Shown here one piece after another: positions 9,701-64,000 of a stretch of DNA of 64,000 nt; the first letter of the stretch is position 1, and every line of letters starts with the position of its first letter. The stretch covers positions 9,796,383 through 9,860,382 of the forward strand of contig NC_091139.1 of NCBI RefSeq assembly GCF_041381155.1. The letters are read 5' to 3'. The notes under the pieces are model-generated. The model searched no databases. It was given only the letters and a program-made list of their open reading frames with translations, and was not told the origin of the DNA. The position numbers and the translations under genes are program-made. The stretch is from Argopecten irradians (Eukaryota; Mollusca; Bivalvia; Pectinida; Pectinidae).

Positions 9701-12700
9701 ACCTCAACAAAATAAACATCAATTCCTTAATTATTGGTAATAGAGGTATCTCTTATAAAGATGTGTACAGTTATGTGAACTTTATAATTGGTTAGAGAGA
9801 TATGGCCTACAAAACAGTAACTATAAATTGTATACTATTATTTGTTATACACACTTTCTGCTTGAAGGACTCTGGCCTTGATAGTTTCCATGTCAGCCTG
9901 GTTTTCCTTTAGTGAGCTCTCTAGCTCTTCCATCCTCTCTTGGGTCTGGTTATACAGTTCGTAATATTTGTCTGCATCACTCTCCGCTAACTTCAGTTTC
10001 TGCCCTAGTTCAGATTCGTCCACACCTTTCTCTAATTTCTGTAATAGATCAAAATGCCACTAAGACTTTAATGTTATCATTGTGTATTCATTGTGTATAA
10101 ACAGCAGTTGTTATACTGGTAGTCTTTGAGGAGTGTGTGCCCCATAACAGTCAGACTCATATTCAAACACTATGACATGGTCAAGGGAACAGTCAACAGT
10201 ATGTGTCATTTGAGAGCGAGGTCATGGATACATCAACAGCATAGGTCATATGAAGGTGAGGTCAAAGATACATGTACAGCTTGAGCCATATATGAGAAGG
10301 GTCAAGAATACAGGGTCAAGGGAACAGTCAACAGTATGTGTCATTAGAGAGCGAGGTCATGGATACATCAACAGCATAGGTCATATGAAGGTGAGGTCAA
10401 GGATACATGTACAGCTTGAGCCATACAGGAGAAGGGTCAAGAATACAGACAAGGTCATATGATGGGTCAATGTTACACCACAAGTCAATCTCATCATGAA
10501 GACAAGGATACATAAACAGTCAAGGTTATATGATGGGACAAGGATACACAAACAGTCAAGGTGATGTCAAAGGGACAAGGATATGGTACACATGATACTC
10601 ACCTTTTCTATACCGATCACAATCAAACTCACATTTTCTATACTGATCACAGTCAAACTCACCTTTTCTATACTGATCACAGTCAAACTCACCTTTTCTA
10701 TACAATCACAGTCAAACTCACCTTTTCTATACTGATCACATCAAACTCACCTTTTCTATACTGATCACAATCAAACTCACCTTTTCTATACTGATCACAA
10801 TAAAACTCACCTTTTCTATACTGATCACAATCAAACTCACCTTTTCTATACTGATCACAATCAAACTCACCTTTTCTATACTGATCACAATCAAACTCAC
10901 CTTTTCTATACTGATCACAATCAAACTCACCTTTTCTATACTGATCACACTCAAACTCACCTTTTCTATACTGATCACAATCAAACTCACCTTTTCTATA
11001 CTAATCACAGTCAAACTCACTATAGTCAAACTCACCTTTTCTATACTGATTACAATAAAACTCACCTTTTCTATACTGATCACAATCAAACTCACCTTTT
11101 CTATACTAATCACAGTCAAACTCACCTTTTCTATACTGATCACAATCAAAATCACCTTTTCTATACTGATCACAGTCAAACTCACCTTTTCTATACTGAT
11201 CACAATCAAACTCACCTTTTCTATACTGATCACAATCAAACTCACCTTTTCTATACTGATCACAATCAAACTCACCTTTTCTATACTGATCACAGTCAAA
11301 CTCACCTTTTCTATACTGATCACAATCAAACTCACCTTTTCTATACTGATCACAGTCAAACTCACCTTTTCTATACTGATCACAATAAAACTCACCTTTT
11401 CTATACTGATCACAGTCAAACTCACCTTTTCTATACTGATCACAATCAAACTCACCTTTTCTATACTGATCACAGTCAAACTCACCTTTTCTATACTGAT
11501 CACAATCAAACTCACCTTTTCTATACTGATCACAATCAAACTCACCTTTTCTATACTGATCACAATCAAACTCACCTTTTCTATACTGATCACATAAACC
11601 CCCTTTTCTATACATAAACTCACTTTCAAATTAAACTCACCTTTTCTATACTGATCACAATCAAACTCACCTTTTCTATACTATCACAATCAAACTCACC
11701 TTTTCTATACTGATCACACTCAAACTCACCTTTTCTATACTGATCACAATCAAACTCACCTTTTCTATACTGATCACAGTCAAACTCACCTTCTCTATAC
11801 CGATCACAATCAAACTCACCTTTTCTATACTGATTACAGTCAAACTCATCTTTTCTATACTGATTACAGTCAAACTCAACTTTTCTATATATACTGATCA
11901 CAGTCAAACTCACCTTTTCTAATTCATCACGCTTGGACAGGAGGAGCGGTGTAAGTTCCTTTAGTCTATTCAATTCTGCTGTCTGTTGTACATACTGAAA
12001 CAAAATAGTGATCATATCTGTGAGTTTTCTGATAGCTACAACACATAGTGGAAAAGGACATCAGGGCAGGTAAAGCTATAAATGTGTTGACTAACAAGAG
12101 GCCCAGAGGGCCTGTATCGCTCACCTGGTTTGTAATGCCAAGTATTGTTCTGAAATCCCCTATTGGGCCCCATCCCTCCTGCCCCCAGGGGGTCAGAACA
12201 AAAACTTATTCAAGTTCTTTTCCCCTTCCCCCAAGAATGTTTATGGCCAAATTTGGTCACAATCCAAGCAAACCTTTACGACAAGTAGCGAATTATAGGA
12301 TTTACCTTTATTTCCCCTATTGGGCCCCACCCGTCCTGCCCCCGGGATGGCCAGAGCCAAAATTTATACAAGTTCTGTTCCCCTTCCCCCAAGGATGTTT
12401 GTGGCCAAATTTGGTTACAATCCATGTAGAAACAATCCATGTAGAACTCCATGACCAGTAGCGATTTAAAGGATTTACCTCTATTTCCCCTATTGGGCCC
12501 CACCCCTTCTGCCCCCGGGGGACCAGAGCCAAAATTTATACAAGTTCTGTTCTCCCTTCCCCAAGGATGTTTGTGGCCAAATTTGGTTACAGTCCATGAA
12601 GAACTCTACGACTAGTAGCGATTTAAAGGAAATGTTGATGGACAGATGGACGGAAGGACGACGGACGCCGCGCCATGACATAAGCTCACCGGCCTTCAGG

Positions 12701-15700
12701 CCAGGTGAGCTAAAAATCAGCTATTTTGTTCTGCCATCTTAAATGCTTTAGAAGTTGCAACTTATATATATATTGTGATGTCACAATGAGTAATTGTATG
12801 TTTCTTACATTGTACTACAAACTCTATGACATAGACAAGTTCTCTGGATGCTAAGAGCATTATATGATACAATAATAAACCATCATATCTGTAATTTAGA
12901 ACTTGCTTTACTTTGCTTAACAACCTGGTGTGATAACTGGTGTGTTATCCAAACGTCAAGCACCTATTTTGGTGTACCTGTGACTCCAGTGACACATTGG
13001 TATAAAGTTGTGATCCCATAAAAGGAGAGTATAAAACTATGTAATGGTCGCAGTATAAAGTTGTGATCCCATAAAAGGAGAGTATAAAACTATGTAATGG
13101 TCACAGTATAAAGCTATGATCCCATAAAAGGAGAGTATAAAACTATGTAATGGTCACAGTATAAAGCTGTGATCCCATAAAAGGAGAGTATAAAACTATG
13201 TAATGGTCACAGTATAAAGCTGTGATCCCATAAAAGGAGAGTATAAAACTATGTAATGGTCACAGTATAAAGTTGTGATCCCATAAAAGGAGAGTATAAA
13301 ACTATGTAATGGTCGCAGTATAAAGTTGTGATCCCATAAAAGGAGAGTATAAAACTATGTAATGGTCACAGTATAAAGCTGTGATCCCATAAAAGGAGAG
13401 TATAAAACTATGTAATGGTCACAGTATAAAGCTGTGATCCCATAAAAGGAGAGTATAAAACTATGTAATGGTCACAGTATAAAGCTATGATCCCATAAAA
13501 GGAGAGTATAAAACTATGTAATGGTCGCAGTATAAAGCTGTGGTCCTGTAAAAGGAGAGTATAAAACTATGTAATGGTCGCAGTATACAGCTGTGATCCC
13601 ATAAAAGGAGAGTATAAAACTATGTGATGGTCGCAGTATAAAGTTGTGATCCAATAGAAGTAAAGTATAAAAATATGTAATGGTCACCGTAAAGACCTGT
13701 GATCCCGTAAAGGAGATTATAAAACTACGTGATGGTCACAGTATAAAGCTGTATAATGGTCGCAGTATAAATCTGTATAATGGTCGCAGTATAAAGTTGT
13801 GATCCCATAAAAGGAGAGTATAAAACTATATAATGGTCACAGTATAAATCTGTATAATGGTCGCAGTATAAAGCTGTGATCCCATAAAAGGAGAGTATAA
13901 AACTATAGTGGTCGCAGTATAGAGCTGTATAATGGTCACAGTATAAAGCTGATCCCATAAAAGGAGAGTATAAAACTGTGGTCCTGTAACGGCGAGTATG
14001 AAACTATGTAATGATCATAGTATAAAACTATGTAATGGTCAAAGTATAAAACTGTGGTCCCGTAACGGAGAGTATAAAACTATGTAATGGTCACAGTATA
14101 AAGTTATGGTCCCGTAAAAGGAGAGTATAAAACTATATAATGATTGCGGTATTATATAAATCTTACCTTAGTTCTGTCATGATGCAATAGTTTATATAAT
14201 TGTTTTTTCTCTTCCTGAAAAAAAAAATACATCCTTTAAAACTTAAACTGCATAAGTCATTGTTTTACTTACACTATTTGCTGTTTACTATTTGAGTCCA
14301 TGGCTACCAAGTGACATTGGTTATTTTTGTAAAAAGAAAATTGCATTGATCATCTTTCAAAATCCTTGTACCAAATGTGTACCAAATAAATGTTCATCTT
14401 AATTTTCGACTAATTTTGAATAAAAAAAAGATCTAAAAACTGATCAGTTATTGGTCACAAAGCCACATATCACTTATGAAAATATTTTTTCTTACTTCCA
14501 GACTTCTTATTGTTTACACGATTTGACTATACACTTACTTCCCATGGTGCAGATGAGTTCATAACAGACAAGGATTGTATAGAACTTTTCTCTTCCTTTA
14601 GTGTTGATATCTCAGCTTTCAGTTGTTCCAATTCTTTGTTTTTTACAGAAATGGTTTCCTCACACTCTTGCTTTTGTTTCTCAACAGAAGACAGCTCAGA
14701 GATGTGGGATTTTTGCATCTCAAGTGTTTGTTTCATGATTTCGATCTTGTCGGTCAGTTGTGAGTTCTCCTGCTGCAGACGTCTCGCCTCCTCTTGGCTG
14801 TTCAGCACTTCCTCTTCCATTTCCCTTATCTGTATAAAGAAACATTGAACTTAACGATGATGAACATTACAACTAAAGCAACCTGCATTGTATATCAAAA
14901 TTCAAGCATTTCTATTATCTAGGTGTATCACATATTGCTGGTATATTTTGCGATTTCACAGGACATTTGTGTAGTTGAGAAAATTTCACCTGCGAAATTA
15001 CAAGTACAGTGCTGTAATTCTAGATCAATCATATGCACACATTAACCTTATTGGGAAATACACATTTTTATCACATAATCCGCCTGATATCCAGTGGTTT
15101 CAACCATGTAATATTTTTGCATATGTCACTAGTGTGATATGACCTGGAACGATTTTCATTGGCTGGAAATTCATTGTGACCTCATTCAGAAACAATAAAA
15201 TGACGTCAAGAAAAATGATGTGACGTCAGATTACGAGGACAGCAGGATCAAAATGGCGACCTTTGCTGGATTTTCAGAATACATTTTGTCATGAAATTCT
15301 TTGTTATGTAGGTATTCGTAGTTATGTGATAATAAGTACCTTAAATTTCTGTTCCTTTCATTTGAGATTTTATGAAACTCATCTTGAAGTTTTATTTTTT
15401 GCTCAGCAAGGCACGCAAAAATAAAAACTCGTTTTACAGACTCGTTTCATAAAATCTCATGAAATGAGCACTCATGCGAGATCCTATATGTAATGAACCT
15501 CAGGGGGACAAACAAAATAACTTCTTTATAAACATAGTTTGTTTCTATGTACTACAGACATCTTATAGGAACCTTGACTGCCGAATGGTGTAGAAACTTA
15601 CATTAACCTTAGTTGTAACCTAAAGTCAACTCAACTTCCAGATGCTTGACTTGGAGCTCTTCTGCTTCTAGAAGCTCTTTCCTCAGTCAGCTGATAGATC

Positions 15701-18700
15701 TCCAAAGATGAGCGCAAATCAAGTTGGCCTAAGGAGTCATCATGAATGTCTGGGTAACCATCTATCTATTCAATTTCATACTACTAAAAAGGGTCAGGTC
15801 ATTTCCATTGATAGTAAATGGAAATATAATTATATAACTTTTTAGTAAAAGATATGACAACTATGAGAAAAAATGGGAAAATAACATTCTAAAAAACATT
15901 ATGACAAGTTGACAATAGCAATATATGTATGTACATACCAAGTGTAGTTTGTCAGTGGCTTCCTCAAGTTTCATCTGCAGTTCACTCCTCTCTTTTTCAG
16001 CCTCAGAAGCATTTCTCTGTATTTCATTCATTTCTTCCAACAGTGTACAAACACGACCACTTTCTTCATTCTGTTCACTTAGTCTTTCGGCAAGTTCTTT
16101 TTCAAGGTTCTGTACTTTTTCATTCAATTCTGTCTTTTCTTTCTCCATTGATTTGTAAATACTTTTAAACTTTTCAAAGGCAGCTGTTTTTGTCTGTCTT
16201 TCCATTTCCAAGTCTTTTAATTCTGATTTTAATTGAATACTATCATTTTCACTTTCTTCTAGTTTGAGTTCCAACATGCTGATTTTCTCATGAAGATTGC
16301 CAAGTTCTAATGACTGCTGCTCAAGATTTGTATTTCCTTGTGAAATCTCTGCCAAATGGGACTCTTTTTCTCTCAATAGTTCATCACATTTCTCTTGGAG
16401 ACAAGGTAGTTGTTCAGCTTTGGGTTTTAAATTTGTAATTTCATCTTGCAAGGTGGCTTGTTCATTACACAGAGCCTCCACTTTGGTCTTCAACTGATCA
16501 CATTCTTGCTGTAATGTTTCCTTTGTTTGAACTTCCATTTTTAAATCTTCTAGTTCTTGATTCAAACTGTCAGAAGTCTCTCCTAATTGAACCTTAAGGG
16601 ATATATTGGTATCTTTTAAAGTGGAAATTTCTGAAAGTAACTGATTATTTATTTCTTCCAATTTCTCACATTTTTCTGTCACAATTGGAAGTTGTTCAAT
16701 TTTGGATCCAACATCTGTCAACTCATCTTGCATGTTAAGACGTTCATCAGCCAAATCCTTCACAGTGGCTCGAAGTACTTCACATTCTTCTTCTAGCATA
16801 GCTACTTTTTGACTCTCAATTTCTTCTCCAATGCCTCCCTTTGTTCTTTCAGCCTCAAGTTTCTCTATTTGAAGCTTCAGTGTAGAGCATTCTTCCATTA
16901 ATTCATTTACAACATCAGTGGAATCAGTGGCCTCCATTTTCCTTTCCTCCAGCTCCTGAACAGTTTCCCTTAACTTTTTACATTCCTCCTCCATCTCTGT
17001 CATTCTGTTTTCAGTTGGTATTTCACGATTCTCGCTCTGCAAAGTTTCCAGTTTCATGAGCAACACTGTTTTCTCTTCTTCCATGTCTTTCAGCTTTTGC
17101 TGCAAGTCGTTTGTAGTTTCTTTAAGATTCTGTAACTCATCATTCGATGTTTCTGGAGTCTCCTTTTCTTCTTTTAATGAATTCAGCTCGATTGCAAGAG
17201 TCTCCTTTTCTTGCATTAGTTCCTCAACCTTTTCTTTCAGAATTGGAAGTTGTTCAATTTTGGATCCAACATCTGTCAACTCATCTTGCATGTTAAGACG
17301 TTCATCAGCCAAATCCTTCACAGTGGCTCGAAGTATTTCACATTCTTCTTCTAGCGTAGCTACTTTTTGACTCTCAGTGTCTGCTCCTTCATCTGTGCAT
17401 GTTCTTTCAGCCTCAAGTTTCTTTATTTGAAGCTTCAGTGTAGAGCATTCTTCCATTAATTCATTTACAACATCAGTGGAATCAGTGGCCTCCATTTTCC
17501 TTTCCTCAAGCTCCTGAACAGTTTCCCTCAACTTCCTACATTCCTCCTCCATCTCTGTCATTCTGTTTTCAGTTGGTATTTCACGATTCTCGCTCTGCAA
17601 AGTTTCCAGTTTCATGAGCAACACTGTTTTCTCTTCTTCCATGTCTTTCAGCTTTTGCTGCAAGTCGTTTGTCATTTCTTTAAGATTCTGTAACTCATCA
17701 TTCGATGTTTCTGGAGTCTCCTTTTCTTCTTTTAATGAATTCAGCTCGATTGCAAGAGTCTCCTTTTCTTGCATTAGTTCCTCAACCTTTTCTTTCAGAA
17801 TTGGAAGTTGTTCAATTTTGGATCCAACATCTGTCAACTCATCTTGCATGTTAAGACGTTCATCAGCTAAATCCTTCACAGTGGCTCGAAGTATTTCACA
17901 TTCTTCTTCTAGCATAGCTACTTTTTGACTCTCAATTTCTTCTCCAATGCCTCCCTTCGTTCTTTCAGCCTCAAGTTTCTCTATTTGAAGCTTCAGTGTA
18001 GAGCATTCTTCCATTAATTCATTAACAACATCAGTGGAATCAGTGGCCTCCATTTTCCTTTCCTCCAGCTCCTGAACAGTTTCCCTCAACTTCCTACATT
18101 CCTCCTCCATCTCTGTCATTCTGTTTTCAGTTGGTATTTCACGATTCTCGCTCTGCAAAGTTTCCAGTTTCATGAGCAACACTGTTTTCTCTTCTTCCAT
18201 GTCTTTCAGCTTTTGCTGCAAGTCGTTTGTAGTTTCTTTAAGATTCTGTAACTCATCATTCGATGTTTCTGGAGTCTCCTTTTCTTCTTTTAATGAATTC
18301 AGCTCGATTGCAAGAGTCTCCTTTTCTTGCATTAGTTCCTCAACCTTTTCTTTCAGAATTGGAAGTTGTTCAATTTTGGATCCAACATCTGTCAACTCAT
18401 CTTGCATGTTCAGACGTTCATCAGCCAAATCCTTCACAGTGGCTCGAAGTATTTCACATTCTTCTTCTAGCGTAGCAACTTTTTGACTCTCAGTGTCTGC
18501 TCCTTCAACTGCGCATGTTCTTTCAGCCTCAAGTTTCTCTATTTGAAGCTTCAGTGTAGAGCATTCTTTCATTAATTCATTTACAACATCAGTGGAATCA
18601 GTGGCCTCCATTTTCCTTTCCTCAAGCTCCTGAACAGTTTCCCTCAACTTCCTACATTCCTCCTCCATCTCTGTCATTCTGTTTTCAGTTGGTATTTCAC

Positions 18701-21700
18701 GATTCTCGCTCTGCAAAGTTTCCAATTTTGCAAGCAACACTGTTTTCTCTTCTTCCATGTCTTTCAGCTTTTTCTGCAAGTCGTTTGTAGTTTCTTTAAG
18801 ATTCTGTAACTCATCATTCGATGTTTCTGGAGTCTCCTTTTCTTCTTTTAATGAATTCAGCTCGATTGCAAGAGTCTCCTTTTCTTGCATTAGTTCCTCA
18901 ACCTTTTCTTTCAGAATTGGAAGTTGTTCAATTTTGGATCCAACATCTGTCAACTCATCTTGCATGTTAAGACGTTCATCAGCTAAATCCTTCACAGTGG
19001 CTCGAAGTATTTCACATTCTTCTTCTAGCATAGCTACTTTTTGACTCTCAATTTCTTCTCCAATGCCTCCCTTCGTTCTTTCAGCCTCAAGTTTCTCTAT
19101 TTGAAGCTTCAGTGTAGAGCATTCTTCCATTAATTCATTTACAACATCAGTGGAATCAGTGGCCTCCATTTTCCTTTCCTCCAGCTCCTGAACAGTTTCC
19201 CTCAACTTCCTACATTCCTCCTCCATCTCTGTCATTCTGTTTTCAGTTGGTATTTCACGATTCTCGCTCTGTAAAGTTTCCAGTTTCATGAGCAACACTG
19301 TTTTCTCTTCTTCCATGTCTTTCAGCTTTTGCTTCAAGTCGTTTGTAGTTTCTTTAAGATTCTGTAACTCATCATTCGATGTTTCTGGAGTCTCCTTTTC
19401 TTCTTTTAATGAGTTCAGCTCCATTACGAGATTCTCCTTTTCTTGCATCAGTTCTTCAAACTTTTCCTTTAGAATAGGCAGATTTTCTACCTCAAGTCCA
19501 AAGCATGTTAATGTATCTTGTACTTTGAGTCGTTCCTCGACTAAATCCTTGGCTGTGCTTTTAAGCACTTCATAATCTTTGGTCAGTGTAGCCATCTTAT
19601 TTTGTTCAGTGTCAACTTGTTCTATCAACTCTGATTTCTCAGTTCCAAGTTCCTCGACCTGCTTCTGTAGAATTGTACATTCCTCTTGCAGTTTACAAAT
19701 GACATCTGTAGAATTAACTGAATCAGTTTTAGATGACGCTTTTTCTTCTTCTAGTTGTCTGATGGTTGCCTTCAACTGCTCACATTCTTCCTGTATTGTA
19801 GGTGTTGAAGCGTCCAGGGATTTAGCTCTGCGGTTAATCTCCAGTTCGCTCTGAAATTCAGTCATCTTTCGAGTCTGTATCTTCAGCTTGTGCTCTTTCT
19901 GGATCACTTCATCAGACAACTTTGTACATTCTTTCAAGATGGTGTTTTTCTCCTGTTGGTAAAGAAGTTAAAAAAACAAAGTGATTTTAAGACAATACTT
20001 TTCCTCAGATATGACACTGACAAATTTTGAGACATGTCCTTGTGTCATTTCACACCTTCACTGTTGGCGAAACAGGTATAAAAATGATATATTCAAATCT
20101 TAAATATTATTTCTTAGAAAAGAAGCCGTAAGAAGGTATCCAACATTGAAAGACAGTAGCCTAAAGACAGGTGCATGAAATTGGCTTTAAGTTTTGATTA
20201 TATAAAGGTACTGAGCTAACTTACATCATGTAATGCCACATTATATTCTTACATTGTACTGAGTGAACACAAGAAACTTACATCATGTAATTCTGCGATG
20301 TTTTCTTACATTGTATGAGTGAACAAAAGAAACTTACATCATGTAACTCTTCGATGTTTTCTTACATTGTACCAAGTTAACTCAGGAAACTTACATCATG
20401 TAATTCTGCGATGTTTTCCTCCAGTGATTTTCTTTCCAGATTATGGAAGGTGGACATATCATTGAACTCGGTTTTCAGTAGGGCATGTTCTTTCAGCAGA
20501 ATTTCATATTTGTCTTCCCTGAAAATCATATAACAAAAAAAAAAAAATTATGTATAATGCTGATGATCTGGGTTTCCAGAATATCAATACAGGTACTAGA
20601 TCACAACACAAAGCTGGGACTGGACATAATACTGTGCAACAGGAAATGTTTGTGAGTACTTTTTTTGTGGTTCGGATATTTCAAAATATTGTGTGTGTAG
20701 AAATATCTGTGGTTGGTCAACTTTGCTGACGACTCATCTCTGATAAAACTGTTAGATAAGCAATTCAAGACTTAAGATTATTTTTCATACTTACAAATCA
20801 ATATGAGCTTTTAATGTGTTATACACCGCAAAAACAACATTTTGAGAATTTCAGTACTTTCAATGCATCTATAGGTTTTAATTTTGAAAGTACAAATAAG
20901 AGCTAAAATGATTTTTGGCAGTAGTTCATTATATTTACATATATAGTGAAGAGAAATGAGGACATATGGTCAGATCACGAAGTCAAGTTATGGTCTACAA
21001 TTTCATTTCATATTTTTAGTGTTACCGTACTCGACCCAATAAGTGCCCATGTCCCCCTTTTAGAGGCCTCGATTTCAATTGCCCAGGCTAAGATAAAGAA
21101 GAAAACTACAAAAAACTGTATAGATTTGCATTAACTTGTTATTATTAGTTCCTTTTCATTTTTCAATTTTTAAACGCCTGGGCTTATTGGGTTGAATACA
21201 GTATTAGTAATTGTAAAGTGATTTCTTCAGAGCCAAGTTTCAAGAACATTCCTCAAATTTAAGGAATTCCTTAACTTAAAATTCTCATAAGAAAGCATTA
21301 CAGAAATTAAGGAAGGCTTCTGAACTTAAAATTATTTCCTTATTCTGTTATGAATGACTTTTGAATGATAAATCATCAAACCTTATTATTGAAATAGACA
21401 AATGAAGAAAAACCAAGACTACCATGTCCTATTCTCCAGATTTCCCTGTCCTATTCCCAGACTTTCTTGTCCTATTCCCCAGACTTCCCTGTCCTATTCC
21501 CCAGACTTCCCTATCCTATTCCCCAGACTTCCCTGTCCTATTCCCCAGACTTCCCTGTCCTATTCCCCAGACTTCCCTGTCCTATTCCCCAGACTTCCCT
21601 GTCCTATTCCCCAGACTTCCATATCCTATTCCCCAGGTTTCCCTGTCCTATTCCCCAGACTTCCCTGTCCTATTCCCCAGGTTTCCCTGTTCTATTCCCC

Positions 21701-24700
21701 AGACTTCCCCGACATATTCCCATCTATTCATCAGACTTCTCTGTCCTATTCCCTAGACTTCCATGACCTATTCTTATCTATTCCCCAGATTTCCCTGTCC
21801 TATTCCAATCTATTTATCAGTGTCCTATTCCAATCTATTCATCAGATTTCCCTGTCCTATTCATCAAACTTCTCTGTCCTATTCCCCAGACTTCCCTGTC
21901 CTATTCCAATCTATTCATCAGACTTCTCTGTCCTATTTCCCAGACTTCCCTGTCCTATTCCAATCTATTCATCAGACTTCTCTGTCCTATTCCCCAGACT
22001 TCCCTGTCCTATTCCCCAGACTTCCCTATCCTATTCCCCAGACTTCCCTGTCCTATTCCCCAGACTTCCCTATCCTATTCCCCAGACTTCAATATCCTAT
22101 TCCCCAGACTTCCTTGTCCTATTCATTAGACTTCCTCATCCTATTTTCCAGACTCCCCTGTACTATTCCCCAGACTTCCCCATCCTATTCATCCGACTTC
22201 CTTGTCCTATTCATCCGACTTCCATATCCTATTCCCCAGACTTCCCTGTCCTATTCATCAGACTTCCCTGTCCTATTCATCAGACTTCCCTGTCCTATTC
22301 CCCAGACATCCATATCCTATTCCCCAGACTTCCCTGTCCTATTCCCCAGGTTTCCCTGTCCTATTCCCCAGACTTCCCTGACACATTCCCATCTATTCAT
22401 AAGACTTCCCTGACCTATTCCCATCTATTCATCAGACTTCTCTGTCCTATTCCCCAGACTTCCCTGTCCTATTCCCCAGACTTCCCTGTCCTATTCCCCA
22501 GACTTCCCTGTCCTATTCCCCAGACTTCCCTGTCCTATTCCCCAGACTTCCATGTCCTATTCCCCAGACTTCCATGTCCTATTCCCCAGACTTCCCTGTC
22601 CTATTCCCCAGACTTCCCTGTCTTATTCCCATCTATTCATAAGACTTCCCTGACCTATTCCCATCTATTCATCAGACTTCTCTGTCCTATTCCCCAGACT
22701 TCCATGACCTATTCTTATCTATTCCCCAGATTTCCCTGTCCTATTCCAATCTATTCATCAGACTTCTCTGTCCTATTCCCCAGACTTCCCTGTCCTATTC
22801 ATCAGACTTCTCTGTCCTATTCCCCAGACTTCCATGTCCTATTCATCAGACTTCTCTGTCCTATTCCCCAGACTTCCCTGTCCTATTCCCCAGACTTCCC
22901 TGTCCTATTCCCCAGACTTCCCTGTCCTATTCAATCTATTCATCAGACTTCCCTGTCCTATTCCCCAGACTTCCCTGTCCTATTCCCAGACTTCCCTGTC
23001 CTATTCCCAGACTTCCCTGTCCTATTCCTCAGACTTCCCTGTCCTATTCCCCAGTCCTGTCCTATTCCCCAGACTTCCCTGTCCTATTCCCCAGACTTCC
23101 CCTGTCCTATTCCCTAGACTTCCCTGTCCTATTTCCCAGACTTCCCTGTCCTATTCCCCAGACTTCCCTGTCCTATTCCCCAGACTTCCCTGTCCTATTC
23201 CCCAGACTTCCCTGTCCTATTCATCTTTTCATCAGACTTCCCTGTCCTATTCCCTAGACTTCCCTGTCCTATTCCAGTCTATTCATCAGACTTCTCTGTC
23301 CTATTTTCCAGACTTCCCTGTCCTATGCCCCAGACTTCCATGTCCACTATTCATCAGACTTCCCTGTCCTATTCATCAACTTCTGTCCTATTCCCCAGAC
23401 TTCCCTGTCCTATTCCCCAGACTTCCCTGTCCTATTCCCCAGACTTCCCTGTCCTATTCCCCAGACTTCCATGTCCTATTCCCTAGACTTCCCTGTCCTA
23501 TTCCAATCTATTCATCAGACTTCTCTGTCCTATTTCCCAGACTTCCCTGTCCTATTCCAATCTATTCATCAGACTTCCTGTCCTATTTCCCAGACTTCCC
23601 TGTCCTATTCCCTATTTATCAGACTTCTCTGTCCTATTCCCAAGACTTCCCTGTCCTATTCCCCAGACTTCCCTGTCCTATTCCCCAGACTTCCCTATCC
23701 TATTCCCCAGACTTCCCTATCCTATTCCCCAGACTTCCCTGTCCTATTCCCCAGACTTCCTTGTCTATCCCAGACTTCTTCCTATTAGACTTCCCTCATC
23801 CTATTCATCAGACTTCCCTGTCCTATTCCCCAGACTTCCCTGTCCTATTCATCAGACTTCCCTGTCCTATTCATCAGACTTCCCTGTCCTATTCCCCAGA
23901 CTTCCCTGTCCTATTCCCCAGACTTCCCTGTCCTATTCCCCAGACTTCCCTGTCCTATTCATCAGACTTCCCTGTCCTATTCCCCAGACTTCCCTGTCCT
24001 ATTCCCCAGACTTCCCTGTCCTATTCCCCAGACTTCCCTGTCCTATTCCCCAGACTTCCCTGTCCTATTCCCCAGACTTCCATGTCCTATTCCCCACTGA
24101 CTTCCCTGTCCTATTCCCCAGACTTCCCTGTCCTATTCCCCAGACTTCCCTGTCCTATTCCCCAGACTTCCCTGTCCTATTCCCCAGACTTCCCTGTCCT
24201 ATTCCCCAGACTTCCCTGACCTATTCCAATCTATTCATCAGACTTCTCTGTCCTATTCCCTAGACTTCCAGACTATCCCTGTCCTATTCCCCAGATTTCC
24301 CTGTCTAATTCCAATCTTTTCATCAGACTTCCATATCCTATTCCCTAGACTTCCCTGTCCTATTCCCCAGACTTCCATGTCTTATTCATCAGACTTCTCT
24401 GTCCTATTTCCCAGACTTCTCTGTCCTATTCCCCAGACTTCCCTGTCTTATTCCAATCTTTTCATCAGACTTCCATGTCCTATTCCCTAGACTTCCCTGT
24501 CCTATTCCAATCTATTTATCATATTTATCAGTGTCCTATTCCAATCTATTCCCCAGACTTCCCTGACCTATTCCCCAGACTTCAATATCCTATTCCCCAG
24601 ACTTCCCTGTCCTATTCCCCAGACTTCCCTGTCCTATTCATCAGACTTCCCTGTCCTATTCATCAGACTTCCCTGTCCTATTCCCCAGACTTCCCTGTCC

Positions 24701-27700
24701 TATTCCCCAGACTTCCCTGTCCTATTCCCCAGACTTCCCTGTCCTCAGACTTCCCTTCCCTATTGTCATAGACTTCCCTGTCCTATTCCCCAATCATTCA
24801 TCAGACTTCCCTGTCCTATTCCCCAGACTTCCCTGTCCTATTCCCCAGACTTCCATACCCTATTCCCAGACTTCCCTGTCCTATTCCCCAGACATCCATA
24901 TCCTATTCCCCAGACTTCCCTGTTCGATTCATCAGACTTCCCTGTTCTATTCATCAGACTTCCCTGTCCTATTCATCAGACTTCCCTGTCCTATTCCCCA
25001 GACTTCCCTGTCCTATTCCCCAGACTTCCCTGTCCTATTCATCAGACTTCCCTGTCCTATTCCCCAGACTTCCCTGTCCTATTCCCACAGACTTCCCTGT
25101 TCTATTCCCCACTGACTTCCATATCCTATTCCCCAGACTTCCATATCCTATTCCCCAGGTTTCCCTGTCCTATTCCCCAGACTTCCCAGTCCTATTCCCC
25201 AGGTTTCCTGTTCTATTCCCCAGACTTCCCCGACATATTCCCATCTATTCATCAGACTTCTCTGTCCTATTCCCTAGACTTCCATGACCTATTCTTATCT
25301 ATTCCCCAGATTTCCCTGTCCTATTCCAATCTATTTATCAGTGTCCTATTCCAATCTATTCATCAGACTTCCCTGTCCTATTCATCAAACTTCTCTGTCC
25401 TATTCCCCAGACTTCCCTGTCCTATTCCCAAGACTTCCCTGTCCTATTCCCCAGACTTCCCTGTCCTATTCCCCAGACTTCCATGTCCTATTCCCTAGAC
25501 TTCCCTGTCCTATTCCAATCTATTCATCAGACTTCTCTGTCCTATTTCCCAGACTTCCCTGTCCTATTCCAATCTATTCATCAGACTTCTCTGTCCTATT
25601 CCCCAGACTTCCCTGTCCTATTCCAAAGACATCCATATCCTATTCCCCAGACTTCCCTATCCTATTCCCCAGACTTCCCTATCCTATTCCCCAGACTTCA
25701 ATATCCTATTCCCCAGACTTCCTTGTCCTATTCATTAGACTTATTCATCCTATTTCCCAGACTCCCCTGTACTATTCCCCAGACTTCCCCATCCTATTCA
25801 TCCGACTTCCATATCCTATTCCCTAGACTTCCCTGTCCTATTCCCCAGACTTCCATGTCTTATTCATCAGACTTCTCTGTCCTATTCCCATCTATTCATC
25901 AGACTTCTCTGTCCTATTCCCCAGACTTCCATGACCTATTCTTATCTATTCCCCAGATTTCCCTGCCCTATTCCAATCTATTCATCAGACTTCTCTGTCC
26001 TATTTCCCAGACTTCCCTGTCCTATTCCCCAGACTTCCCTGTCTTATTCCAATCTTTTCATCAGACTTCCATATCCTATTCCCTAGACTTCCCTGTCCTA
26101 TTCCCCAGACTTCCATGTCTTATTCATCAGACTTCTCTGTCCTATTCCCATCTATTCATCAGACTTCTCTGTCCTATTTCCCAGACTTCCCTGTCCTATT
26201 CCAATCTATTCATCAGACTTCTCTGTCCTATTTCCCAGACTTCCCTGTCCTATTCATCAGACTTCTCTGTCCTATTCCCATCTTTTCATCAGACTTCCAT
26301 GTCCTATTCCCCAGATTTCCCTGTCCTATTCCAATCTATTTATCAGTGTCCTATTCCAATCTATTCATCAGACTTCCCTGTCCTATTCATCAAACTTCTC
26401 TGTCCTATTCCCCAGACTTCAATATCCTATTCCCCAGACTTCCCTGTCCTATTCATCAAACTTCTCTGTCCTATTCCCCAGACTTCCCTGTCCTATTCCC
26501 CAGACTTCCCTGTCCTATTCCCCAGACTTCCCTGTCTTATTCATCAGACTTCCATGTCCTATTCCCCAGACTTCCCTGTCCTATTCATCAGACTTCTCTG
26601 TCCTATTCCCCAGACTTCCATGTCTTATTCATCAGACTTCCCTGTCCTATTCCCCAGACTTCCCTGTCCTATTCGTCAGACTTCCCTGCCCTATTGTCAG
26701 ACATCTCTGTCCTATTCCAATCTATTCATCAGACTTCCATGTCCTATTCCCTAGACTTCCCTGTCCTATTCGTCAGACTTCCCTGCCCTATTGTCAGACA
26801 TCTCTGTCCTATTCCAATCTATTCATCAGACTCCCCTGTACTATTCCCCAGACATCCATATCCTATTCCCCATATTTCCCTGTCCTATTCCCCAGACATC
26901 CATATCCTATTCCCCAGACTTCCCTGTTCGATTCATCAGACTTCCCTGTGCTATTCATCAGACTTCCCTGTCCTATTCATCAGACTTCCTCGTGCTATTC
27001 CCCAGATTTCCCTGTCCTATTCATCTGACTTCCCTGTCCTATTCATCTGACTTCCCTGTCCTATTCCCCAGACTTCCCTGTCCTATTCCCACTGACTTCC
27101 CTGTTCTATTCCCCACTGACTTCCATATCCTATTCCCCAGACTTCCATATCCTATTCCCCAGGTTTCCCTGTCCTATTCCCCAGACTTCCCAGTCCTATT
27201 CCCCAGGTTTCCCTGTTCTATTCCCCAGACTTCCCCGACATATTCCCATCTATTCATCAGACTTCTCTGTCCTATTCCCTAGACTTCCATGACCTATTCT
27301 TATCTATTCCCCAGATTTCCCTGTCCTATTCCAATCTATTTATCAGTGTCCTATTCCAATCTATTCATCAGACTTCCCTGTCCTATTCATCAAACTTCTC
27401 TGTCCTATTCCCCAGACTTCCCTGTCCTATTCCCCAGACTTCCCTGTCCTATTCCCCAGACTTCCCTGTCCTATTCCCCACTGACTTCCCTGTCCTATTC
27501 CCCAGACTTCCCTGTCCTATTCCCCAGACTTCCCTGTCCTATTTCCCAGACTTCCCTGTCCTATTCCAATCTATTCATCAGACTTCTCTGTCCTATTCCC
27601 CAGACTTCCCTGTCCTATTCCCAGACATCCATATCCTATTCCCCAGACTTCCCTGTCCTATTCCCTAGACTTCCCTGTCCTATTCCAATCTATTCATCAG

Positions 27701-45700: not shown

Positions 45701-48700
45701 CAGCCTATTTTTTTTTTTTGCATGATATGATGATTTATGACATTACAAACAAATTCTGTACAACACATTAACGTAAAAATCATAGTAATCATTGGGTTTG
45801 GATTTTTATTTGTTTATCGTCCTACTAACAGCTAAGGTTATGGATGTGCCAGGTTTGTTGGTGGAGGAAAGTCAGAGTACCAGAGAAAAACCATCGACCA
45901 GCAGTCAGTAGTAATCACACTTACAGACTCGATTATAGCAAATATTTCTTCCACAGATAATGTGATGATGCCTTTCTGCATGTGACTCCCCGACATCGTG
46001 AATGTTTTTCCTGAAGAACTTTGTCCATAGGCGAAAATGGTTCCTATAAGTGATTTCATAAATAATTATTAGTAATTCATTTTCAGTCTAAAAAAGCTTT
46101 AATTTATATCATCAACTTTTCTTTTTCAGTGCTAAATGGGACTAATTCACATACCATGTGATACCCGATAACGTTTGTGCAGGACTATTCTCCAGTGGTG
46201 ATGGAATATAACTCTTTATAATCTTCCCACTGAAATGATGTCAGCATATCATCTTTTGACGTCATTCCATCACCAATAGAAACAATAGTCCCACACAGAT
46301 GTTATCAGGTAGCACATGGTACATGAATTAGTCCAATTATTATCAGCTGCAACCTATCATTTTTCCCCAAAAAATCATCTAATACAGATATACGTACATT
46401 CAAATTACCAAAACTCAACATTCAAAGTTAAAACTAAAAAGTGACAATAGCCCTGATCAATCAAAATCTTGCCATTAATACATACTGTATTCTACCCAAT
46501 AAGCACCCAGGGCTTTAAAAGAATTGACATAATGAAAAGGTGCTTAATAAGACGAAATTATTGCAAACTTATAGTTTTGATAGTTTTTGTCATATGCCTG
46601 GGCATTTGAAATAAAGGCTCAAAAATGAAAGGGGCACTTATAGAGACATGGGCGAAAACGGTATCAAGACTGTTCCCTTTTAGATCTCTATGGTGATCTG
46701 GTTTCCATTGTTATAGCTTATTTTCTACTTAACCCTACTGTCTGGAATGTAGTACCTACCGTATTGGACCCAATATTAAGCGTCCAGGGTGTTTAAAAAA
46801 TCTAAAAAGTGAAAAGGTGCTTAATAAGACAAAATTATTGCAAACCTATACAGTTTTGTGTAGTCTTGGTCTTTATACCTGGGCAATTGAAATTGAGGCC
46901 TCAAAAAGAGGGAGGGCGCTAATAGGGACATGGGCGCTTATTGGGTCGAATACGGTATGTCTCACATTTATACAAAATGAAAATTTTACCATTAAATCCC
47001 TGTAAAGCATCACTAATAATGGGTTTGCAGACTTCCTCAAAGATGTCATATGTTGTCATCAATTCATCAAATATACGATCTGAAAATAAAAGAAATCAAT
47101 TTTATTTTGCTCATGACCGATTTCAAATAAAAGAATTATAAAAAAAAAATGCAAATAATGATGAGATGCGATAACAGGACACCATGCATATTTTACATAC
47201 AAGTATATATAGCTGTACAAAAAAATACTTTGGAAATTTTCTGTAAATGGAATGATTTTGTATCCAAGAAAAAATAGCTGAACTCGTGATGAAATGACAA
47301 ACAAGAGGCCCAAGGGCCTTAACGGTCATCTGATTACCTTAGCAATAGCTGTATAGGAAATTAATTAGATATGGTGTCAGGGTTAAAAAATAAAAACACT
47401 TGGTCATGACCATGTAAGGATAATTTCATGCAAGTTTCAGTCAAACTGCATGGGTAGAACTTCAAGAAGTTCAAAATGTGTTTTCAAGATGGCGTTTTTG
47501 GTGACCATCTTGGTTTTCGGGTCAACCCGACAAATAACAACACTTTGTTGGGACAATGTCAGTTTCCTTAAAATTATTCAGACAAGTTCCAGCAAAATCG
47601 CACTGGTAGAACTTGATAATAAGTTCAAACTATATTTTCAAGATGGCCGGAGTGGTGTCTATCTTGGATTTCAGATCAACATAAGATATAAAAACACTTG
47701 GTCACGACCATGACAAGGATCATTTCATGCAAGTATCAGCTAAATCACACTGGCAGAATTTGAGAAGAAGTTCAAAATTCAAGATTTTTGAATATTTGAC
47801 TCCCCTGACCTTGATAGTTGGTCAAGGTCATTCATTTCAATAACTTTGGTAACCCTTCATCCCAGCATGCCACAGGCCAAATATGAGTACCCTGGACCTT
47901 TTGGTTAGTAAGAAGAAGTCATTCAAAGATTTTAGCCTATTTGACCCCTCTGACCTTGAAAGTAGGTCAAGGTCATTAATTTTCACAACTTTTGAAGCCA
48001 TTCATCCCTGCATACTACAGGCCAAATATGAGTACTCTGGGCCTTATGGTTATTGAGAAGAAGTAGTTAAAAGATTTTAGCCTATTTGACCCTTGTGACC
48101 TTGACAGCAGGTCAAGGTCATTAATTTTCATAACTTTGGTAGCCCTTTTTCCCCGCATGGTACAGGCCAAATAAGAGTACTCTGGGCCTTATGGTTATTG
48201 AGGAGAATTCGTTGAAAGATTTTAGCCTATTTGTCCCCTGTGACCTTGAAAATAGGTCAAGGTCTTTTATTTTCACAACTTTGATAGTCCTTCATCCCCG
48301 CATGCTACAGGCCAAATATGAGTACTCTGGGCCTTATGGTTATTGGGAAGAAGTTGTTCAAAGTTTTTAGCCTATTTGACCCCTGTGACCTTGAAAGTAG
48401 GTCAAGGTCATTTATTTCACAACTTTGGTAGCCCTTAATCCCAGCATGATACAGGCCAAATATGACTACTCTGGGCCTTATGGTTATTGAGGAGAATTCG
48501 TTGAAAGATTTTAGCCTATTTGTCCCCTGTGACCTTGAAAGTATCAACAATGTTTACCAAATGTGTATGGTGATGACAGCTTTCCCGTTGCCTCTGTTGA
48601 TTTTATTGTGTCATCTTGTACATTCCAGTAATTTACCATTCCATTCTCCCTATGTACAACACAAGAAGTCAAGTCAGTGTTCACATCATTGATAAGAAAT

Positions 48701-49023: not shown

Positions 49024-49037
49024 CTTATTAAAGCACT

Positions 49038-53915: not shown

Positions 53916-54012
53916 TTATCAGCTATTGAAAAAATGTCCAAATAATATTATCAATAGCCAGTGACATGCATATACTGTAAAGGATATAGTACCCCAATGA
54001 AGTGTATTGCTT

Positions 54013-54231
54013 AGGCAAAAAAATATTATATGTCTGTTAAGGATTACATTGGTCGGTAGGTCGGCATTTGTTTGTTTGGTTTTTTTTTAGTGTCTTTCAC
54101 TCTAAAATAATAGCCGGAACCGGAGTCTGAGATCGAAATCCCAATTTTTATTTCCCTCTTTTTCGCAGAAAAGAGGAAAAAATAAGGTCGAGGGTAAAAA
54201 ATTAGGGTCGATCGGGTATATATTTTTGGCC
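54013..54231 (+). mobile_element. Foldback element E, copy 3
   Basis: Starts GGCAAAAAAATATTATATG, then TGTCTGTTAAGGATTACATT, includes 'agtgtctttcactctaaaat' and ends TATATTTTTGGCC. Shares its body with the right half of the element at 29.5-31.5 kb. Confidence 0.7.
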
Positions 54232-54488
54232 TTATTTCACTATAATTGTAAATATATGTACAAAATGTAAACATAACTCTCTTTAAATGTAACATATTCA
54301 TCTACTATTTGAATGAACTTGGCATGCTTGTTTGATTTAATTGTATATGTTATTTATTCTGTTTACTTTTTGGAGGAAATAAAGAGAATGAATCTTGGTC
54401 TTCAAAATTGTACGTGAAGAAATTATATAGGTGTTTGGGATTTATATTTGTTAACTGTATATATCTTTTATTATTATTACTTTCATAC

Positions 54489-54489
54489 T

Positions 54490-54529
<40 letters not shown>
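54489..54529. repeat. (ATC)n microsatellite
   Basis: About 13 perfect CAT/ATC triplets. The apparent poly-His ORF is this repeat. Confidence 0.95.
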
Positions 54530-54639
54530 AGCAAATTTAATTCCGTTTCAGATAACGTTTGCAACCAGCTTGACAATGCATGTGCTTTCTAGGAAGGTGT
54601 TTCCTAGCGGTAGTTTTTTTTAATTTGGCGCCATATTTT

Positions 54640-55009
54640 CCTTTGCACGCTCGTTAGAGTTATCTCCACCTGAAAACAATTTTAGGTAAGTGTGCGGGTT
54701 TTTAATGTTTTTAAAGCTTCTATGAAGGTAGTTAGGTTCATGAATGCTGGAAAATGTCGTTTTCTATCCATCGGTGTACTTAATCACGTTAATCATTCTA
54801 AAAAAGCCGTATCTCTTCTTTGTTTATGTTTGCTTCCGTTTTGGGTTTGAGATTAAGCTTGATGTTGCCATGTGACGTGACGCCGTGCTCGCTGACAACT
54901 TGGGGCGAACGAAGGTCTATGTCAGTAATATTACTATTATGTAGGGCAATAAAGAGTGTGTGATTTGGACGTCTGGATTATTATATACCCAGTAATCAAC
55001 AAAGAAATT
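54640..55009 (+). promoter_or_regulatory. Likely promoter and 5' UTR of the CIMAP2-like gene
   Basis: CpG-richer stretch upstream of the start codon. GTTGCCATGTGAC at 54864-54876 matches the first half of an RFX X-box (GTTGCCATGGCAAC type) with a poor second half, followed by TGACGTGACG (CRE half-site). X-boxes are expected for ciliary genes. A GTAAGT at 54686 could be a 5' UTR donor. No TATA box. Confidence 0.3.
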
Positions 55010-55059
55010 ATGGCAGAAAAGAAATTTAATGGAGCTCCGTTTGGCACACAGACTGCAAG
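55010..55059 (+). CDS. CIMAP2: CIMAP2-like exon 1, start codon
   Basis: ATG at 55010, then AEKKFNGAPFGTQTA. The frame ends AG|GCAAGT: a GC donor in strong context. With the exon 2 acceptor this makes AG|A (Arg), giving QTARFDVSG as in the family. No GT site fits. Confidence 0.8.
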
Positions 55060-61000: not shown

Positions 61001-63849
61001 AAGAATTATAATAATGTACCATCATCGGTTTCCCAATTAATGTTGACATTAATTATTTATTAGCAACATATAGCTAACACGGAAGAATTCGTTGTCAAAA
61101 TACTACTTTTCCACTTAAGCACGTCAGACACATAGCGGGGCCCTTTCTGACGTGTCAGTGTTGTAGTATTTGTAATAATATAGCTACTATAGGCTTGATG
61201 GATTCTAATGATTTGTGTGGTTCTTATGACCTGATAAGTACATGAGTGGTCTGGCAGTGTTTGTTCAGCCCTTGACTAAGTCTATGTTTGAAGTGTCATA
61301 TACATATAGTCTAAGTAGGTGATGTTATAGGGTTGTAAATATTCCGACCACGCACACCATTATAGTATATATACGACCAGGTGACACCCCAGGCTGTAAT
61401 ATCAGGCCAGCTCCAATATAGGTATAAATATGTTTACACGCTCTTCAGTTATATAGCCCATAAGTGGGGTTGAGTGATAGTTAAATAGCTTTCTTTACGT
61501 TTAGGATTTTTGATATGGTTCTAATTTACATTATTTGTCTAAATCTTAGGTCATACTTAGTATGGTAAAATCAGCTGAATCCAGATTACGGTACATGTCA
61601 AATCTAGTCAGTGACTGGGCTAACCAGATTAATTCATATCCAGTTACTGACCAGGATTAGCTCATCAGTAATATCATATCTGGTTACTGACCCAAGCCTA
61701 ACATAACCAGATTGATATCATATCTGGTTACTTTCAGACCCGAGGATTAACTAATCATAATCAAATTACTTTCAGACCCGAGGATTAACTAATCAGTAAT
61801 ATCAAATCTAGTTACTGACCCAGCCTTAACACTAACCAGATATGATATTAATCTGGTTACTGACCCAGCCTTAACACTAACCAGATATGATATTAATCTG
61901 GTTACTGACCCAGCCTTAACACTAACCAGATATGATATTAATCTGATTACTGACCCAGCCTAAACACTAACCAGATATGATATTAATCTGGTTACTGACC
62001 CAGCCTAAACACTAACCAGATATGATATTAATCTGGTTACTGACCCAGCCTAAACACTAACCAGATATGATATTAATCTGGTTACTGACCCAGCCTTAAC
62101 ACTAACCAGATATGATATTAATCTGGTTACTGACCCATATATATATATAATATCATATTCGGTTACTGACCCACACCTAACTTAACCAGATGAATGTTAT
62201 ATCTGGTCTATCTATTGACGGTGGCGGTTTACCTGTAAATCTGTAGTGCATTGATGTTTGAACTGATCCTATAGCATTATTGATCAGATTGAGTTGTGGT
62301 GGCATCAGTGGACAATAGTTTGTATGTTTGTTGTTATCAATAACCCTATAGATCGTCTGTCAGAGGTGAATGTGTCTCTGGCCGCAGGAGTAAATCAATT
62401 ATTGAATACAATATCGGCGCGATGTGATAAGGATAAACAAGAAATGTTGAGTTAATACAGTTGGTATTGTACTGTATTGTGGCTATGGATTGATTTTCAC
62501 AGAATTGATTGCCTCTTTAAACAACTAATTATGTGATACAATATCCATATTAGTTATACCAGTTATTTGTGATTGGAATAGATTTAAAGCACTGCCTGAC
62601 AGTACTCCAGTTAAGATACGTACACAGGTAAAATACACTTTAAAATGTGTCAATTACCCATAAAAATAGAATGAACGGGTACTAATTACAAATATTTGTA
62701 TTATGAAATGCAATTATTATGAGCGCTTACATCCAGGAATAAAATTACAAGCACACACACACATGCACACACAGATATTTGCAATGCAATTATTATGAGT
62801 GTAACAACAAGAAAAAATATTTAAAAAAAAAAATAAAATAAAGTAAAATCAGACGAATTCCAGTAATGCTCAAAAATATGTATTAACTGTACTCTAAATG
62901 TTTCAAAACATTTGTACAAATTGCTATCTTAAAGATGCTCCACCGCCAACAGAGCATAAATGATATTCATCATTTGAACAATAATTGTTGTTTAATCGTG
63001 TATATATATGTCTAATTAAAACAAAAAATGATATAAAATCATTTATTTCGCCTTTGGTGCATGCGCAATCAGTACTTCATCCAAATAGGATATAGTGACA
63101 CGGAATTTTTTCGGGATGCAATTAATTATTTTTCATGTTTTTAACTTGAAGTAAAATTAGAAGCTCAAACTTTTCAATGGTGGTAATGGTGTAAAGTAAG
63201 TAACTTTTGTAACCGAAGAAAAATACTAAATCGTCAACTCCTGTTTCTGATAGTGAAAAAATACCATTTGTCAGCGGTGGAGCATCTTTAATTGTCATCG
63301 ATTACTTTATACAATTTAACCACGATAGAACTTTTTCCAACAGATGCGTTTTCAGTTTTGGGTTCGCACTGAAGTCAGAGTTGTACCCTTCCCTTTTCAA
63401 AATTGCGAGTAAAATGGGAATAATACACGTACCACGTACGTGATACCTATAACTGGAGATACCAGTCCCGCACATAGTACGTGAGTTAGTCCTATTAACC
63501 ATCCCTCCCAAAATTATCTGGATCACTGTGCCATTGTCATGGTAGTTGGGTTATAATGTGGGTCTGGGGGTTTAGAAATGTAAAATATCTTTCTCCTTCT
63601 TTGATTTTTTTCCATGAAATCTAATTTCATAGCAAATAGAATTAATGATGTTTTATTCCCCATCAAACGAAACAATTATGTGGCAACTAAATTTTTTTCT
63701 TATTTACCCCTTGCTAATTGAAGGCAAGGAAACTAGGTCCAGGTTCTTATGACATCAAAGATTTCCTGCAACATAGTGATGAAAAGCCACGAAGCTATCG
63801 AGGGATTTGTCAGACGCTGTCACATCGCTTCAATGACCATCAGGCAGTG
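55010..63849 (+). CDS. CIMAP2: CIMAP2/LEXM-like ciliary microtubule-associated protein, 5' part of gene
   Basis: Four exons encode 145 residues and run off the right edge. The family (formerly LEXM, C1orf177) holds PG-rich STPG-type repeats and is linked to axonemal microtubules. Seen here: FGTQTARFDVSGVHP, then FTEIPYDKK, then two RLGPGSY / KLGPGSYDI motifs and WARAYEVERMAALPH. The combination RFDVSGV plus LGPGSY is what identifies it. Intron 1 has a GC donor. Intron 3 (6.3 kb) carries two minisatellites and several elements. The intron after exon 4 begins with copies of that exon's end. It is divergent from CENP-E, starts about 6 kb apart. Confidence 0.75.
55060..55699. other. CIMAP2-like intron 1, left part
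   Basis: AT-rich; nothing recognised. Confidence 0.4.
55700..56255 (+). mobile_element. Pair of roughly 170-bp SINE-like direct repeats
   Basis: Two copies (about 55690-55865 and 56080-56250) share CCATCAGCTAGTT, GGCCCACTCTTGGATGGGTG-type sequence and CTCTGTTGGTTCRAxCCC. The last part resembles an RNA polymerase III B box (GGTTCGAxxCC). Diverged copies; no tRNA fold evident. Confidence 0.5.
56350..56415 (+). mobile_element. tRNA-derived SINE-like fragment
   Basis: TGTAGCTCAACTGATAGAGC is a good A box with D-arm, and GGGTTAGAACCAC a B box about 40 bp on. The anticodon arm and acceptor stem do not pair, so this is a tRNA-like repeat head and not a functional tRNA gene. Confidence 0.5.
56845..56932 (+). 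CDS. CIMAP2: CIMAP2-like exon 2
   Basis: Acceptor TTTATTACAG, donor GTACTG|GTAAGT. Encodes RFDVSGVHPKSKYPG and TFTEIPYDKKSIDVL, the family's N-terminal signature. Phase 0 out. Confidence 0.85.
57298..57468 (+). CDS. CIMAP2: CIMAP2-like exon 3
   Basis: Acceptor TTGAATAG, donor ATGCTG|GTAAGT; 57 codons, phase 0 at both ends. Encodes NRRLGPGSYKVDHGGF, SAGPGWARAYEVERMA and HKDQWELKKML. LGPGSY is a PG-rich STPG-like motif. The ATG-initiated ORF in another frame here is a shadow. Confidence 0.87.
57495..57858. mobile_element. MITE with TAC(T/C)GTA termini
   Basis: Left TACTGTAATCATCATAATTA and right, inverted, TAATTATCGCGGATACGGTA share most of 25 bp. About 364 bp, 26 bp after exon 3. Related in style to the TACCGTA family but with a different interior. 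Confidence 0.6.
57859..58437. other. CIMAP2-like intron 3 segment
   Basis: AT-rich; a minor 'ggtcttt(g/a)tacaaaggt' repeat near 57974-58055. Nothing else. Confidence 0.4.
58438..58622 (-). mobile_element. MITE, TTAAAGATGCTC family, partial inverted copy
   Basis: Starts AAAGATGCTCCACCGCTGAC and continues with TTACTTACTTTACACCATTA, the reverse of the body at 1477-1832 and 62929-63292. The other end is missing. Confidence 0.72.
58838..58925 (+). mobile_element. Possible element head related to family A
   Basis: AACAAGAGATCCAAGAGGGA then TCTTGGTGCCC: the same AACAAGAG start followed by a short palindrome, but with GATCC in place of GGCCC. It immediately precedes the 48-bp array. Confidence 0.4.
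58926..59330. repeat. 48-bp minisatellite in intron 3
   Basis: About eight copies of a roughly 48-50-bp unit containing CCTCATATGACCTTTGACCA and 'ttgatgtcacctagacagag'. One copy is truncated (59168-59185). It is not next to a splice site. Confidence 0.88.
59331..60446. other. CIMAP2-like intron 3 segment
   Basis: AT-rich with (TA)n near 60176-60192; no exon or repeat family recognised. Confidence 0.4.
60447..61205. mobile_element. Element with GGGCCCCGC ends inside a short direct repeat
   Basis: Three units of AATATAGCTACTATAGGCTT-type sequence (60447-60548) and one more at 61165-61203 flank a roughly 615-bp block. The block starts AGGGCCCCGCATCGAGATGC and ends near AGCGGGGCCCTTTCTGACGT, with GTCTGTCCGTCCGTCG near the left end. 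Inverted GC-rich ends suggest an insertion. No ORF of note. Confidence 0.5.
61206..61600. other. CIMAP2-like intron 3 segment
   Basis: Nothing recognised. Confidence 0.4.
61600..62200. repeat. 46-bp minisatellite with internal palindrome
   Basis: Six or seven near-identical copies from about 61800 to 62135, with degenerate copies on both sides. The unit has GGTTACTGACCCAGCC and CCAGATATGATATTAATCTG; the CCAGAT...ATCTGG arms are inverted, so each unit can fold. Not next to a splice site. Confidence 0.88.
62201..62928. other. CIMAP2-like intron 3 segment
   Basis: No exon recognised; a short (CA)n tract at 62751-62771. Confidence 0.4.
62929..63292 (+). mobile_element. MITE, TTAAAGATGCTC family, copy 2
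   Basis: TTAAAGATGCTCCACCGCCA on the left, and GGTGGAGCATCTTTAA on the right as its inverse. About 364 bp, nearly the same as 1477-1832. Confidence 0.85.
63293..63723. other. End of CIMAP2-like intron 3
   Basis: No exon seen. A short inverted pair (ACGTACCACGTACGTG area, 63427-63485) is present. The tract before the acceptor is T-rich. Confidence 0.4.
63724..63849 (+). CDS. CIMAP2: CIMAP2-like exon 4
   Basis: Acceptor TAATTGAAG, donor GCAGTG|GTAAGT; 42 codons, phase 0. Encodes ARKLGPGSYDIKDFL and DEKPRSYRGICQTLSH, a second LGPGSY motif. Its last 39 nt are duplicated downstream with the donor. Confidence 0.85.
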
Positions 63850-64000
63850 GTAAGTAGTCTATCAGGGAAACTGTCAGACGCTGTCACATCGCTTCAAGGA
63901 CCTTCAGGCAGTGGTAAGTAGTCTATTGGGGAATCTGTCAGACGCTGTCACATCGCTTCAAGCAGTAGTAAGTATTCTATCGGGGAATTCTGTCACCAGA
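63811..64000 (+). repeat. 64-bp repeat of the exon 4 end and donor, three copies, cut by the window edge
   Basis: CAGACGCTGTCACATCGCTT begins at 63811, 63875 and 63939, exactly 64 bp apart. Copy 2 keeps CAGGCAGTG|GTAAGTAGTC intact; copy 3 has a 15-bp or so deletion but keeps AGTAGTAAGTA. The array may continue beyond the window. Confidence 0.93.

Follow-up and report, generated by a model that had tools for sequence, protein, structure and literature searches.

The CENP-E gene of the bay scallop Argopecten irradians and a second gene to its right carry tandem arrays at or near the 5' splice sites (donors) of six introns, and in four of these arrays the units repeat the end of the exon together with its donor. 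All six lie in one stretch of 64,000 nucleotides, referred to here as the window (assembly GCF_041381155.1, contig NC_091139.1, positions 9,796,383 to 9,860,382). We compared them with kinesin exons elsewhere in the same genome. The arrays were probably made by tandem duplication in place in a repeat-rich genome, running across splice sites since spare donors are tolerated. Tolerance rather than targeting would then set the rate of boundary arrays, perhaps with some mild extra seeding on top of it.

Merged calls of Tandem Repeats Finder (TRF) amount to 26 arrays, which take up 38% of the window and include all six that the original prediction had picked out from the letters alone. The units of these six are 22, 30, 33, 53, 57 and 64 bp long and run head-to-tail, within the minisatellite size range of roughly 10-100 bp. 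CENP-E lies on the minus strand, with 24 coding exons, 23 donors and 23 acceptors in the window. The exon ends at the arrays were set by P0003, the centromere-associated protein E-like isoform X2 of the Argopecten irradians annotation, residues 6-2044 of which place exon by exon on the minus strand with two single-residue breaks. P0003 closes each of the five array exons at the donor preceding the array, and these are the same five donor positions that had been predicted. The exons numbered 10, 14, 15, 18 and 19 here were 10, 14, 15, 19 and 20 in the original prediction.

The largest array, with a 33-bp unit (32220-39430, minus strand), makes up 7195 of the 7269 bases (99%) of intron 10. By TRF and counts it holds about 217 units with the exon end and donor, and the perfect donor motif AGGGTAGGT occurs 155 times. 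It overlaps the last 16 bases of exon 10 (39415-39547, minus), which encodes the end of the kinesin motor (...EESHSTLR) and closes at the donor AGG/GTAGGT; P0003 and the Ylistrum balloti protein P0001 both give the junction SHSTLR/FASQ. The 57-bp array (20218-20418, minus) has 3.5 units and includes 24 bp of exon 15 (20395-20518, minus; donor ATGAT/GTAAGT, P0003 junction ELHD/EKNT). The 30-bp array (10597-11921, minus) has about 44 units and 38 perfect copies of AAGGTGAGT, and includes 8 bp of exon 19 (11914-11994, minus; donor AAAAG/GTGAGT by P0003 mapping). In the second gene, on the plus strand, the 64-bp array (63795-64000) copies exon sequence and donor, the last exon base being 63849. 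TRF on the window starts this array at 63808, an exon overlap of 42 bp; with the next 6 kb added it starts at 63795, an overlap of 55 bp, and its 7.8 copies end 290 bp beyond the window edge. The exon concerned matches a SHIPPO-repeat weakly, at 15.8 bits, below the cut-off of 20; the name CIMAP2-like for this gene is only the original prediction's label.

The other two arrays differ. The 22-bp array of intron 14 (21416-28460, minus) has a TRF part, 21416-28419, that fills 88% of the intron and begins only past 41 intron bases. The donor of exon 14 (28461-28635, minus; GATCT/GTAAGT, a junction in P0003), taken as six exon bases plus GTAAGT and what follows, shares 22 of 26 positions with a later unit (score 18), so that the donor reads as a diverged first unit. 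From the end of exon 14 onward there is a single GTAAGT, against 212 instances of GGAAGT. The 53-bp array in the intron of exon 18 (13000-14142, minus; about 22 units) leaves the first 24 intron bases outside, and the donor of that exon (14167-14214, minus; CTAAG/GTAAGA by P0003 mapping) is uncopied. The proposal that the first unit overlaps or abuts the donor thus held for exons 10, 14 (through its diverged unit), 15 and 19 and for the second gene, but not for the 53-bp array. As had been proposed, the splice donor is carried by the units of four arrays, those of 33, 30, 57 and 64 bp; neither the 53-bp array nor the later 22-bp units carry it.

The arrays are unrelated in sequence, as first suggested. 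The 33-bp unit has 98 matches in the 846-Mb genome, every one inside its own array, in a search that ignores very common words. We therefore rejected one common satellite family, the units differing between arrays and the 33-bp unit being private to its locus; what recurs, at the boundaries of unrelated genes, is the position. The acceptors of introns 10, 14, 15 and 19 fall outside their arrays. The single acceptor-side duplication predicted for CENP-E was found at exon 5 (45228-45344, minus, lower limit approximate), where two copies score 36, the first exon base is 45253 and the upstream copy lies at 45344-45298.

Arrays of this kind are difficult to assemble, and P0003 was annotated from the same assembly. 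It could thus be argued that the repeats are misassembled or that gene models were drawn to fit them. We regard such an artefact as very improbable. The Ylistrum protein agrees on the exon 10/11, 14/15 and 15/16 junctions (the ends of exons 18 and 19 are without such support), the first units run on directly from unique exon sequence, and other loci, several of them with 2-6 copies, show the pattern too. Gene models fitted to the arrays were set aside on the agreement of the annotated protein's junctions.

To score copying we matched a 40-bp segment centred on each site to the next 270-280 bp on the intron side and required a score of at least 19. Foreign pairs, with up to 3000 draws each, scored at best 15.5 at donors and 20 at acceptors, and reached 19 at rates of 0.0000 and 0.0003, respectively. 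Foreign sequence almost never reaches 19, and the boundary copies are therefore real. In CENP-E, 3 of 23 donors and 1 of 23 acceptors (exon 5) passed, with the exon 14 donor narrowly below at 18. Exons 1-8 were placed with P0001, and their splice sites are weight-matrix choices near BLAST ends, the donors chosen for exons 3 and 7 being possibly off; none of these eight exons' donors was recopied in the donor-copy test in the window. Among points 100 bp inside the introns, 7 of 23 passed when measured from the donor, and 1 of 23 when measured from the acceptor. As so many interior points also pass, the window alone gives no evidence for a preference for donors.

Since the pattern should not be judged on the sequence that suggested it, we drew an independent sample outside the window, from kinesin-domain exon matches in the same genome (1508 contigs). 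Of 130 matches listed, 3 were in the window and 127 outside; 120 of the 127 were examined (7 uncovered), with about 299 kb read. They fall into 38 gene-like clusters, so the sites are not fully independent. The splice sites are predictions of a generic weight matrix rather than of one trained on this genome. With repeats of one site removed, a site score of 4.5 kept 105 donors and 87 acceptors, and a laxer 2.0 kept 115 and 108. Arrays cover 24% of the 20 sampled 10-kb kinesin loci and 11% of intron bases 20-300 past the sampled donors.

Nine of the 105 sampled donors are recopied downstream. Points inside the introns are copied as often: 11 of 105 at +20, 13 of 105 at +40, 11 of 105 at both +60 and +80, 8 of 100 at +100, 8 of 98 at +120 and 9 of 98 at +140. 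Inside exons the counts are 3 of 105 at -20 and at -40 and 2 of 105 at -60. The copy rate is therefore flat over the donor and drops in the exon. Tolerated duplication in place fits this, and it also fits the privacy of the 33-bp unit and an annotated protein whose exons end at the first donor. Tolerance through a working first donor, which the original prediction had offered as an alternative, thus explains most of the pattern.

The claim that only the donor side is affected did not survive. Acceptors are spanned too, 3 of 87 at the main cut-off (L016, L048 and L079) and 6 of 108 at the laxer one (plus L015, L056 and L060). The array at the L016 acceptor has 12.5 units and runs 20 bases into the exon, and that at L048 has 7.3 units and runs 50 bases in. 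Intron points near acceptors are recopied in 3-5 of 79-87 cases, so copies are more frequent in the half of the intron next to the donor (8-13 of 98-105) than in the half next to the acceptor. Donor and acceptor copy rates compare at p=0.23, or p=0.60 at the laxer cut-off.

Minisatellites private to their locus would arise in place when the segment duplicated in tandem happened to cross an exon-intron boundary. Under exon definition, an exon's acceptor is paired with its first donor. Any further donor lying 3' of the genuine one would remain intronic for as long as the spliceosome made this pairing, and the array would then be free to grow until it filled the intron. Such arrays would persist because the boundary is redundant and the first donor sufficient. 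The first donor would be the one used in RNA.

The donor copies themselves look much like the rest of their units. The GT is kept at 0.97/0.96 in the 33-bp array against a position mean of 0.94, and at 0.96/0.98 against 0.95 in the 30-bp array; strong selection preserving the copies was rejected, the GT being kept about like other unit positions. Multiples of three make up 5 of the 12 TRF periods of donor-copying arrays (33, 30, 57 and 64 in the window; 35, 59, 25, 82, 78, 62, 115 and 30 in the sample), which is close to one third and so as expected with later donors unused. This also led us to discard frame-keeping arrays. A low-power search for read-through peptides of array units gave 0 of 2006 candidates at E 0.001 or better, with P0003 itself unscored.

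Several observations weigh against tolerance as a complete account. One is that array starts lie closer to donors than they should. Eleven starts fall within -20 to +60 of a donor and 11 within 60 to 260, where the near interval is 28.6% by length (binomial p=0.027; 11 against 12 at the laxer cut-off, p=0.039). Four fall within 10 bp of a donor against 1.16 expected (p=0.03). Plain tolerance predicts no such excess. It would be expected if a mutational process seeded tandem duplication at exon-intron boundaries, through transcription-linked breaks or through microhomology between the donor consensus and intronic GTAAG-like words. A rotation test that ignores homology, run on 18 of the 20 10-kb loci after removal of two that overlap, points the same way. 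The count at donors was 6 against 2.9 expected (p=0.07; stricter, 4 against 1.4, p=0.06) and at acceptors 7 against 3.2 (p=0.04; stricter, 4 against 1.5, p=0.07), a two- to three-fold excess on both sides alike. However, donors are copied at the same rate as intron interiors, and the 3' edges of arrays at acceptors in the homology-defined sample have no excess (4 near and 9 far, p=0.53; laxer, 6 and 12, p=0.41). The starts are scattered from -117 to +45 with no single motif, and the p-values are borderline, several bins and cut-offs having been examined. We therefore consider seeding of this kind rather unlikely as the main cause. For the enrichment at donors that had been proposed, the sample has a modest excess of starts and no rise in donor copying, which we read as a mild excess at boundaries generally, with a donor effect unproven. 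Tolerance accounts for the greater part of what is seen; a dedicated seeding process may exist but is unproven, and a donor-specific one is not demonstrated.

The remaining points of this kind concern the state of the copies and the choice between donors. In five of seven arrays the nine donor bases are conserved slightly better than the remaining unit positions (in L042 and L061 they fare worse), a difference within the spread between positions. Such retention, with the 155 and 38 perfect consensus donors of the 33-bp and 30-bp arrays, would suit arrays with a function, in which donor copies recruit U1 snRNP and either protect long introns or strengthen exon recognition. This is highly unlikely to be the explanation. 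The 53-bp array is without a donor, the 22-bp array and L077 have copies without GT, and recopied donors are no weaker than others (mean site strength 9.5, n=9, against 8.3, n=96; p=0.09). L077 resembles the exon 14 array in that the true donor is GTAAGT and the later copies are GGAAGT. The GGAAGT copies at both places may mean that decoy donors are harmful; decoys may have been silenced, or the founding unit may have carried GG from the start. Where donors compete, SRSF1 favours the intron-proximal site and hnRNP A1 the intron-distal one (PMC5585400), so the first donor need not always be the one used.

Ordinary intronic minisatellites have short units, many copies and private sequence. The scallop arrays are alike in this, but their first unit extends into a coding exon. 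The closest relative may be the human gene 6-16/IFI6, for which Turri and colleagues in 1995 reportedly described, to go by the title, a minisatellite with multiple splice donors. There too a minisatellite would supply several donors, but IFI6 is one human gene, whereas in the scallop several unrelated arrays occur in one gene, and others elsewhere, with up to about 217 units. Introns can also be gained when an exon segment containing AGGT is duplicated in tandem (Rogers 1989; Hellsten 2011), as PMC4974935 describes, with a fission-yeast case in which a 24-bp segment stands in several tandem copies. As outlined there, an exon segment and a splice signal are copied, as in the scallop arrays, but intron gain makes a new intron with both splice sites from the copied segment, and the scallop acceptors are outside the arrays. 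The repeat in intron 5 of canine LHX3 was set aside, as in the extract of PMC3223203 the donor is not copied by the array. A draft bay scallop genome had 46-47% repeats, by the figures in part of PMC7090048. In the literature searched, subscription papers being mostly outside the reach of that search, we found no study that asked across a whole genome how array edges lie relative to splice sites.

The window has other repeats as well. CENP-E exon 16 (15939-19952, minus) holds five in-frame coding repeats of 558 bp, which contrast with the arrays described above in lying inside an exon; these are 186-residue coiled-coil units, all within one 4-kb coding exon. Tandem repeats of about 145 bp containing TTTGACCCCTGTGACCTTGA occur at 10-876 and 47781-48543, and on the opposite strand in L017; they are alike by eye and may be a dispersed family. 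A further array of about 145-bp units at 5987-7577 contains AAGATGGCGGCTGTGGCGGCCATCTT, by eye an inverted repeat.

A bolder proposal is that exon-intron boundaries are preferred birthplaces of minisatellites in this scallop lineage, with many introns grown from their own donors. Some of these introns would hold nearly identical, competing donors over thousands of bases, and in some arrays the decoys would be silenced. We think this doubtful. If an excess of array starts beside boundaries were true genome-wide, the birth of minisatellites would be tied to gene structure. The arrays suggest one route by which introns lengthen, and they carry a warning that exon ends in mollusc genomes can be hidden by repeat masking. 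Introns such as CENP-E intron 10, with its 155 perfect donor motifs, are experiments of nature on the rule by which the spliceosome selects one 5' splice site when many are identical.

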